DNA from: Tribonema minus | Lineage: Eukaryota; Sar; Xanthophyceae; Tribonematales; Tribonemataceae | Length of the DNA: 64,000 nt | NCBI GenBank assembly: GCA_017506865.1 | Contig: JAFCMP010000058.1 | Coordinates: 1 to 64,000 of the forward strand | Reading direction: 5' to 3' | In this document: positions 9,023 through 63,583 of the stretch, in pieces | Layout: every line of letters starts with the position of its first letter | Numbering within the stretch: position 1 is the stretch's first letter | Translations under genes and position numbers: made by a program | Notes under the pieces: model-generated | Told to the model about the DNA's origin: nothing | What the model saw: the letters and a program-made list of their open reading frames with translations, nothing else | Databases searched by the model: none

Positions 9023-12000
9023 ATGCGGTGCCTGCTTTTGTTGGCGCTGGTGGTCATGACCAGAACTGCTGTTGCTGGCGAGCGGATTCAAAAGGCTGCT
9101 CTGAGTGAAGCTGGAGCTGGGAGCACCGCACAAGAGCCCAAGGTCACGGATGCCATCCCAAATTCAGAATACTTTGAAGGAGCTCAGGAGCGGCCATTGC
9201 TGGATGTGATCAAGCCAGCGGAGGGGCAGGTGCTGGCCACGACGGATCTGGAAGTGAGTGCAGCGAGAGAGAGATTTGATGAGTGCTCCGAGTTTTGTGA
9301 GCACGTGCACCGGCAGCTGCCAGGCTCGCCTTATGAGGCTCGGTTTATTTATGACTGTGTTGGCCAATATTGAAGTTCCACCTGTAAGTGTGCAATCAAG
9401 ACTTGCCACGCTTTTGCTCATATGTGCGCGTTCCCACTTGTTCTTAATTCAACAATTGAAGTTGCAGCAGTGACTGTGAACAAGCCCTGTCTACTGCGTC
9501 CAGACAAGTGCCGCTTTTGCATCGTCCAATCATTGTTGCATGGCATCGTGTGCTTTCATGCCATGCATCACCCGACAGATGCTGATACAGTTCGAACTTG
9601 AAGCGAGCTCGTTTAGCCCAAACCAGAAACTCATGTCCAGCGTCACGGCATCCATTATTGTGCGTCTACGTTGTGTACCCACAGCCAGATGTGTGCCACG
9701 GCACGAGCAACCCAAATGCATTCATCAACATCAAAAGCCGCATCACGTGCTCTCATTTGCTCCTAGCAAGATGAGGCTCACGTGCGTGACACTGTGTGCT
9801 CGAGTCGTGTATTAAGCGCAGATTCAGCTGAAGTTAACTCTTTTGCCCCCAAACCAGATGCCTCTTGTCAACATGAAGGCGTCCACAGGCGTGTGTCTAC
9901 CTTGTACGGGACGAGCAACCCAAATGCACCCGTGAACATCAAAAGCTGCATCACATGTTAATGTGCTCCGTGCGAGAGAAGGCCTTGGGGCGTGTAACAC
10001 ACTGTGTGCTTGTGTCGTGTACGGAGCGCAGATTCAGCTGAATTCAACTCTTTCACAATGTGCCGCGGCACGAGCGGCCCAGATGCACTCATGAACATCA
10101 AAAGCTGCATCATGTACTCATTTGCTCCGCGCGACAGCAGACTTGAAGTATGTCACACGCTGTGTGCTTGGGTCGTGTACGAAGCGCAGATTCAGCTGAG
10201 CCTGGAGGGGTATACTCTGCCGAGCATGATGCACGGCAGCAGGGTCTGCCTGGGGCTGGCGAGTCTTGGCCAGAAGATCGCTGAGACGTGCTTCACGCAG
10301 GTGAGCTTATTAGCCAGCTTTCTCACGAGAGTTGCCTGGAACTGGCCCAGCAGCGTTCGTCAGACACCAGTTGACGGTGATTCGTGCGGGAGAGGAAATT
10401 CTTCTAAAAAGGCATACTTCAGAAGTACTTTGTAAATGACACCAACCTGAACTGTGTAAGGAGCGCTTGACACAGTATCAACAAATGCCATACTGCTTTG
10501 CGGAGTGTGCTCCACGTCCATGCACATGACCTGATTGTATTCCGTTGGTGGATTATTGCACTTCAACTATGCGCAACTTCAAGAGTGCCTGCGCGCAGTG
10601 CCAGTGCGGACCATTCGACACATGCCTGTCTCCAACGACCAGCGAGGCAGCAGGCACTCACTCTCTGCTGCGTACAGCATTTGCTGCGGTATTGGATGAC
10701 GTATTTGCCTGCGGAATGCGGAACCACACTTGGTGCCCCCCCCCTGTAGAATCCGCCAATGGTGGGTGGAGCATAACATGCACAACTTTAATGTGTTCCT
10801 CGTCACAGGTTCAGCACCTGTGAGATAATGTTTAGCATCTCCATGCACATGACACCGTCACTAGATTGTTGTGCAGCACGTGATGAGATACTTCAACAAG
10901 TTTTGAATGAACTGACATTAACCCGCACACGTGGCTTTTTTTCTTCTGTCTTGTGCAACATTTTGCAGATGACCACATCGCCGGAGTCCCACGCGTCAGG
11001 GGACTATGAACTATGTTTAGCAAGTCCAGCTTCAAGCATACTCCACAAAGTCAACACATGCTCAAAGAACTGGAGCTGAAAACAGCGTGTACGAAGTACA
11101 TTGTTCTTCCATTTCTGTCTCGTGCAACATTGAACAGATGACCCCATCGCTGGAGTTCCACGCATCGGGCCTGGCGGCGGGCACCAGCTACCTGCTGCGC
11201 GCGGTGGTGATGGAGCGCGGCGCGGTGCTGGCGGTGTGCGTGCGCTCGTTCCGCGTGGGCGGCGTGAGTATCGGCGGCCTGGGCCTGCCGCAGGTGAAGT
11301 TGAACTTCAACTGAAGCAAAACACTCTTGGCTGCTTCATCCACACCAACGTGGTAAGTGGAACATCTAGCACAGGTGCGGTGCTGGCGGTGTGCGTGCGC
11401 TCGTTCCGCGCGGGTGGCGTGAGCATCGGCGGCCTGGGCCTGCCGCAGGTGAAGTTGAACTTCAACTGAAGCAAAAAAACTATTTGCGGTGTGCGTGCGC
11501 TCTTTCCGCGTCGGCGGCGTGAGCATCGGCTGCCTGGGGCTGCCGCAGGTGAAGTTGAACTTCAAGTACATGACTTGAAGTTGAACTTCAAGTACCGTAC
11601 TTGGCTGCTCTCTCCACACCAACGTGGGAAGTTGAACATCAAGCACAGGTGCGGTGCTGGCGGTGTGCGTGTGCTCATTCCGCGTGGGCGGCGTGAGCAT
11701 TGGCGGCCTGGGCCTGCCAGAGATGAAGTTAATCTTCAAGTACAGCACTCACAACCGTTCGTATACAGTTTGCAACCACTGCTTGTATGCACGCGGTGGC
11801 AGGCAGCCCTGAGTATTAGTGTTAGGGGAAGCGTCAGGTTAGGATTACTCAATCTAACCCTGACCACGCACAGATGTGAAATTTCCGCCGCGTCTGCGTT
11901 GGTGCAGCCTGTATGTAGCTACCGCAGGATGAGCGCTGCCATCAGCTCACAAGACGCAATCTCGCCGCACGCTCGATGCTGCAGAACGCGCACTCCCATC

Positions 12001-63200: not shown

Positions 63201-63583
63201 TGCATGCAGAAATGTTTTGCAAATTTGTTGCCTATGTTTGGAACTGTCAATGGCAGGCAGCTGCAACACTTGCCCAACTATTATGCTTGCACAGTGTCTG
63301 AGCCGCTGAGTTTTGTGTCTGCTGCGTTCTGATGTACAGGCGATTGCGGACAAGGATTTTCTGCCCAAGGGCGGCCTCGTGGGCGTGCCGTGCCACCATC
63401 TCTATGAGCGCGATGCAGAACTGCCTGTGAGTGCCGGTGATTCACACCTGCTTGACCAGAAATTTCCTGCGAGCTGTGGCAACTGAGCTCTGGCAACCAA
63501 ATCGCTTGTGTTAGGTCTGCGTGTGATGGTTTTTGCAGCCCATCGATGTGCGGCTGTGCGAGTTTGCATACCAGGCCAAGTAG
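57243..63583 (+). CDS. 2-oxoglutarate/Fe(II) oxygenase with internal SAP domain
   Basis: Model: 57243-57407, 57815-58022, 58427-58596, 59036-59319, 59754-59990, 60632-60786, 62384-62494, 62775-62818 (putative), 63340-63426, 63539-63583; all phases agree, about 501 residues. The oxygenase core (about 65-340) carries NVYEKGGFFETHRDTP with iron ligands His 168 and Asp 170, then FGSLVVCLP, LQWAAFYGHCRHRI with His 314 as third ligand, and GHRITLTY with Arg 324 for 2-oxoglutarate. This is the prolyl-hydroxylase-like fold seen in many algal and fungal proteins; the substrate is unknown. An acidic Ser/Glu insert lies at about 230-255. Residues about 369-402 (MRMPELKDLCRARKVQ, then GTKPVLIERLRAY) form a SAP DNA/RNA-binding helix pair. 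FLPKGGLVGVPCHHLYERD follows, as in the family's C-terminal part. Exon 1 and the 44-nt exon are the weakest parts. Confidence 0.75.
59570..59605 (+). repeat. Decayed copy of oxygenase exon 5 start
   Basis: CTCAGATGGCTGTCTACAGG and the next codons (WLSTGGE) copy the true acceptor and start at 59751-59775. Confidence 0.7.
60787..60990 (+). repeat. Tandem copies of oxygenase exon 6 donor region
   Basis: Two units of about 104 bp share GAGCACTGCAGCA, GCAGGGGG, CTAGCCCCTGATTTT, ACCCTA and CCTTG.GA.GC; a third begins near 60990. Each repeats the bases that follow the true donor. Confidence 0.8.
62495..62740 (+). repeat. Tandem duplication after oxygenase exon 7
   Basis: CTGCAGTGCTCAGCGCGCA.GTACCCTTGCTGTAC, CTTGTT and TTTTGTGTCACA.GGCTGC recur in two units of about 118 bp, starting near 62500 and 62622. 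Confidence 0.85.

Follow-up and report, generated by a model that had tools for sequence, protein, structure and literature searches.

The introns of a TPR/GT41 glycosyltransferase gene (9023–34134, + strand) contain copies of the edges of the exons beside them, an observation that is strongly confirmed for this gene. Junction queries of up to 180 nt, extending ≤90 nt into the exon, were aligned to the adjacent intron, and a copy was called significant at Z≥4.5 if it included exon bases; by this measure exon-bearing copies are present at 16 of the 36 glycosyltransferase exon edges. The explanation that best accounts for the data as a whole, and on the sequence evidence very probably the correct one, is that short local duplications that took in the splice junction, occurring repeatedly, lengthened the introns of this gene.

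The glycosyltransferase gene and its surroundings

The window, that is, the whole 64-kb stretch of DNA analysed, is eukaryotic nuclear-type DNA with GT–AG introns and CCCTAA tracts. Based on the frame of the joined exons and on Pfam, the glycosyltransferase gene was modelled with 19 exons on the + strand: E1 (9023–9383), E2 (10196–10300), E3 (12444–12593), E4 (14089–14355), E5 (15119–15216), E6 (16145–16387), E7 (17477–17585), E8 (19186–19358), E9 (20877–21096), E10 (22008–22108), E11 (24625–24788), E12 (25723–25775), E13 (26710–26922), E14 (28595–28693), E15 (28942–29019), E16 (29904–30023), E17 (31237–31329), E18 (32233–32349) and E19 (33933–34134). E1 and E15 are uncertain, the open frame of E1 stopping at 9373, upstream of the donor chosen in the model. 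Joined, exons 2–19 make a single open frame of 867 amino acids with a terminal stop, and the product matches Pfam Glyco_transf_41 (E=7.6 × 10−25) and TPR families. Three further genes were compared: a METTL5 gene, identified by its match to METTL5 chains in the Protein Data Bank (E=3.2 × 10−55), a homocysteine methyltransferase gene (Pfam, E=5.3 × 10−13), and a gene whose label, oxygenase, is that of the preliminary description and is unconfirmed, two hand-joined fragments having given no Pfam family and one weak AppA_4HB match below the cut-off. Searches of IMG/VR and of GTDB species genomes with a few exact peptide and DNA words found no relatives.

Several other features of the window were recorded. 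An open reverse transcriptase frame of 1791 amino acids (RVT_1; 2007–7382, − strand) lies between tandem arrays at 1651–2121 and 7454–8418, whose units share sequence on both sides, as if the frame had inserted into a satellite or carried one. Telomere-like tracts occur within the glycosyltransferase gene as CCCTAA at 12980, 16989, 17388, 18299, 20317, 26085 and 31829 and as TTAGGG at 19700, so that 7 of the 8 have CCCTAA on the sense strand of the gene. The word ACCCTAACCC is found 14 times in the window against 0.05 expected, and the palindrome-like ACTTCAAGT/ACTTGAAGT, at times within ACTTCAAGTTGAAGT, 16 times against 0.2 expected, at sites that include 10141, 11559, 15228, 15328, 24541, 27786, 27933, 28196, 29661, 30045 and 61690. 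On the strand opposite to the homocysteine methyltransferase gene, a BTB-domain open frame (46301–46972, + strand) is situated within a 4.8-kb intron of that gene (48403 to 43587), an interval in which the latter presumably has no exon. Outside the four genes there is a 459-bp tandem duplication (38389–39308) with 99.6% identity, which is therefore much younger than the others, and a 5S rRNA gene is located at 56584–56702 (− strand).

Copies of exon edges in the glycosyltransferase introns

All copies lie on the + strand, and in the junction search their exon reach is 4–76 nt. Acceptor copies were found for E2 (two upstream copies, 9740–9831 and 9947–10041, with 4 exon nt and 86–88 intron nt, within an array at 9692–10199), E3 (12029–12235; 17 and 4 exon nt), E4 (13777–13901; 58/62 exon nt, AG kept), E6 (15963–16034; 59/66 exon nt, AG kept), E8 (two upstream copies in 18778–19053 with 64–65 exon nt, and a weak third at 18576–18632) and E11 (23674–23804; 53/58 exon nt), the last being 0.82 kb upstream of its junction and not adjacent to it. 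The E6 copy, in low-complexity GC-rich sequence, was found by the junction query and is lost when a low-complexity filter is applied. Donor copies were found for E3 (12711–12829; 27/28 exon nt, GT kept), E5 (15307–15410; 11/12 exon nt), E7 (four downstream copies in 17678–18102, GT kept in 4/4), E8 (three downstream copies in 19450–19791; 48–76 exon nt), E10 (22236–22332; 45/60 exon nt), E11 (two copies in 24936–25136), E13 (27814–27930; 44/49 exon nt; non-adjacent, 0.89 kb downstream), E15 (29157–29270; 29/32 exon nt), E17 (31461–31518; 28/29 exon nt) and E18 (32459–32514; 44/51 exon nt). Beyond these 16 edges, blastn added a copy at the E14 donor, where tandem copies (28754–28927) of the segment 28677–28831 have a unit holding 17 nt of E14 together with the donor, an exon part that the junction search missed. 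Relative to the exons enumerated in the preliminary description, exons 9 and 12 have no copy in our model and the unlisted exons 10 and 13 have one; the numbering may differ. The donor of exon 17 (31330) is of the non-canonical GC–AG type and the GC is retained in its intronic copy, and the E18 copy carries GTGAGT where the used donor at 32350 reads GTAAAT, making it a candidate alternative donor.

An independent word test compared 40-nt exon words with the adjacent intron and with 100 dinucleotide shuffles of it for 25 introns of three genes, a word passing if ≤1/100 shuffles did as well. Donor edge words passed in 10/25 cases, all of them in the glycosyltransferase gene, and acceptor edge words in 6/25 (5 glycosyltransferase, 1 oxygenase, the O1–O2 acceptor), compared with 2/25 and 4/25 for words from exon centres and 0/25 and 1/25 for words from the opposite, far end of each exon. 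The matches are thus specific to the edge and to its side: near edges exceed far ends (16/50 versus 1/50; P=8 × 10−5), and they also exceed exon centres (16/50 versus 6/50; P=0.028). A point against junction-including duplication is that exon centres match more often than far ends (6/50 versus 1/50).

The copies are direct and local. No inverted copy was detected at any of the 36 glycosyltransferase edges, and edge words matched non-adjacent introns of the same gene in 9 of 544 comparisons, so that within the gene the same sequence does not recur in many introns as it does for Introners. Furthermore, the alignments cross the junction into both exon and intron: among the 22 copies that contain 10 or more exon nt, the alignment takes in at least 6 intron nt as well in 19. 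Position, direct orientation, locality and the codon-position pattern described below together uphold the earlier proposal that a junction-spanning segment is duplicated and its extra copy absorbed by the intron.

Edges of the three other genes

The preliminary description had placed the phenomenon in four unrelated genes and suggested that it might be general. It stands for the glycosyltransferase gene (16/36 edges). In the three other genes an exon-bearing copy was found at 1 of 18 edges, the homocysteine methyltransferase H1 donor, with weak scores (Z=4.7 and 5.0), and at 0 of 18 at Z 6; compared with 14/36 glycosyltransferase edges, this is fewer (Fisher P=0.011) and leaves generality beyond one gene unsupported, and the near absence of edge-bearing copies elsewhere is also a point against junction-including duplication as the overall explanation. 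The repeats in these genes at 48932–49135, 60789 and 62496 begin close to an edge, a few tens of bases away at most, and contain no exon sequence. For METTL5 exon 4, a real tandem pair exists (54398–54554, + strand), as had been reported, and it crosses the acceptor, where the exon starts at 54548, by only 7 nt. In the oxygenase gene, the O1–O2 acceptor word passed the shuffle test and the junction search gave no copy there; with the donors of the model, the repeats at 60789 and 62496 begin 1–2 nt inside the intron. If a second O6 donor at 62533, in phase with the O7 frame of the model, were the one used, the exon would contain 37 nt of the repeat.

Decay of the intronic copies

Mismatches were counted in those glycosyltransferase copies that hold 10 or more exon bases and score Z≥8, 22 in all. 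Between exon and copy they amount to 28/319 (8.8%), 32/329 (9.7%) and 55/325 (16.9%) at codon positions 1, 2 and 3, respectively, and to 145/895 (16.2%) in the intronic part of the copies. Positions 1 and 2 taken together differ from position 3 (P=0.0007), and position 3 does not differ from the intron (P=0.79), in a test in which copies of one array are non-independent and the uncertain exon 15 is included. Unconstrained lineages have each moved by about 8–9%: at positions 1 and 2 only the intronic copy is free to change, and both partners are free at third positions and in intron sequence. The copies are therefore most simply seen as dead DNA and the exon as the constrained partner, and the pattern fits duplication followed by neutral decay of the intronic copy under exon constraint.

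Copies farther from the edge are no less identical to the exon than nearer ones (Spearman −0.09, P=0.69, 22 copies); the four E7 donor copies, for instance, have identities of 0.94, 0.93, 0.80 and 0.94 going outward. The claim that copies decay with distance from the exon is therefore unsupported.

Tandem arrangement and a proposed mechanism

Contiguous or near-contiguous tandem pairs occur at E2, E5, the E8 acceptor, the E11 donor, E14 and E15, and the start-to-start spacing of copies is mostly 77–250 nt. Nine other pairs are separated by spacers of 79–823 nt, of which 7 are unlike the remainder expected of simple tandem duplication, two of those being >700 nt; the exceptions with some resemblance are the E3 donor (Z=4.6) and the E8 donor (Z=2.3). 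For the seven spacers without resemblance, later insertion or deletion, or non-tandem copying, is therefore also needed.

In the mechanism that we propose, a short local duplication would take in a splice junction, and the extra copy, in direct orientation, would land in the intron beside that edge. The exon-proximal splice site would presumably stay in use; the mRNA would therefore be unchanged and the intron longer by one unit. Duplications within an exon or spanning a whole exon would be purged by selection. The duplications may perhaps arise in the repair of DNA breaks or nicks, and, equally tentatively, they may in this gene arise several times more often at exon edges than in intron interiors.

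Exon edges as a possible duplication hot spot

Exon edges lie inside a significant local copy more often than random intron points do (14/36 versus 96/959, one-sided tests), a ratio of 3.9 with a 95% interval of 2.2–7.5 (bootstrap over introns). A first run of this point test had given 76/709 for intron points, 14/36 for edges, 9/299 for intergenic points and 2/34 for exon centres. Duplicate coverage of the introns is 0.43 in the first 50 nt next to an edge, declines to 0.05 at 500–700 nt, and is back up to 0.32 in the deepest bin (700–1300 nt). Under circular shifting of the edges, a looser control, 14 observed edges compare with 8.1±2.6, and 44 of 2000 shifts were as high (P about 0.02).

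A reading that shares the duplication mechanism, and is compatible with the main part of our explanation, denies only the hot spot: local duplication would be uniform and neutral, and edges would stand out only because their conserved exon partner stays recognizable longer. We regard this as quite possible, if short of probable. The decay of the copies has the pace expected when change is confined to the intronic partner, some duplicates are purely intronic (10944, 11219, 12627, 14356 and 29690), and the circular-shift excess is modest. Against it stand simulations in which tandem duplications are placed uniformly, the exon is frozen, and substitutions, indels and deletions also occur, run on random sequence with introns of ≤1600 nt and tandem insertion only, in which the ratio of edges to intron points spans 0.66–1.34 compared with the observed 3.9 (2.2–7.5). 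The frozen-exon runs gave 0.85–1.24 (112 replicates) and runs that also had unrelated insertions, at a rate four times that of duplication, 1.11–1.34 (80 replicates); none of these 192 replicates reached 14 edges, at a simulated interior density of 0.05–0.09 compared with 0.10–0.11 observed. In a first trial the ratio was 0.66–1.01 and 2 of 32 replicates reached 14 edges, both at three times the observed density, and with recombinational contraction (ratio 0.93–1.03) 1 of 24 did so.

Two other candidate causes were set aside. A recombination ratchet shielding edge copies, when simulated, produced no excess (ratio 0.93–1.03), and GC content is not supported as the driver of duplication by a correlation over intron tiles of 100 nt (rho=0.08, P=0.26), although duplicates are few in the 21 tiles with less than 45% GC and the exons have a higher GC content (0.67). 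Taken together, an excess at edges is likely, although it rests on one gene and on the decay model, and within these 64 kb it may reflect either a junction hot spot or unmodelled survivorship.

Other readings of the copies

It is most improbable that the copies are alternative or decoy exons under selection. The splice dinucleotide is kept in 17 of the 19 copies that span the junction, and the E18 copy has a donor nearer to consensus than the one used; this retention, however, agrees with that expected from neutral decay at 9% per site (82%; P=0.56), and the idea that the splice sites of the copies are preserved was dropped. The differences at codon positions 1 and 2 show copies decaying without coding constraint, which also argues against the possible alternative exons of the preliminary description, and the acceptor copies of E4 and E8, when translated, run into stops. 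An origin of the introns themselves by tandem duplication of exonic AGGT segments, as envisaged by Rogers, would account for exon-like sequence within introns, yet under it the end of the upstream exon should recur where the intron ends (3′), and the start of the downstream exon where the intron begins (5′). All 10 significant donor words instead match best near the intron 5′ end, ending 77–325 nt past the donor, and most copies include pre-existing intron flank, which leaves this origin with a very slight chance. An assembly artefact is scarcely credible: tandem arrays misassemble easily, but assembly duplicates are expected to be near identical, and these copies are ~12% off the exon with a codon-position pattern.

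Relation to known systems

The closest parallel to junction-including duplication is the potato RdRp gene, in which one tandem duplication across an intron–exon boundary gave rise to a new intron as well as an exon segment inserted beside it (Ma, Lan and Niu 2016, PMC4974935). The duplicate there likewise joins the 3′ portion of an intron to the 5′ portion of the exon that follows, with inherited splice signals; in contrast, many edges are involved here, donors as well as acceptors, and the extra copy is kept inside the old intron. The glycosyltransferase gene looks like the same kind of mutation, recurring along a single gene and with a quiet result. In intron gain from exonic AGGT segments (Rogers 1989; Hellsten 2011; both as cited in PMC4974935), a short tandem duplication similarly leaves the mRNA unchanged, but its source, in that citing account, is purely exonic and its product a new intron. 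For stwintronization in Lipomyces (PMC7138796), it is proposed that an intron already present had its donor element duplicated, over 4–7 nt only, leading to nested introns; the proposed donor duplication is shared with the present case, in which up to 76 exon nt are involved and no nested splicing was seen. Introners (PMC9860276) also multiply intron material within a genome, as dispersed families that insert into many genes; the glycosyltransferase copies, in contrast, are local, each belonging to one junction. In open-licence PMC text, no earlier description was found of introns being lengthened by recurrent junction-spanning duplication and, as far as a limited search of that text goes, intron lengthening without transposons is poorly documented.

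Junction-spanning duplicates come with a built-in clock, in which the comparison of exon and copy at codon positions 1 and 2 dates the event and the comparison of intron with intron provides a check; in any genome, intron growth can therefore be dated and tested. Should the excess at edges have a mutational cause, the junctions would be a hot spot and also a source of decoy splice sites. More speculatively, and with rather doubtful standing, exon–intron junctions in this lineage might be hot spots of 80–250 bp tandem duplication, with breaks perhaps placed there by transcription, R-loops or nucleosome boundaries, so that introns would grow inward from both ends, and a large share of their DNA would be decayed exon edge.
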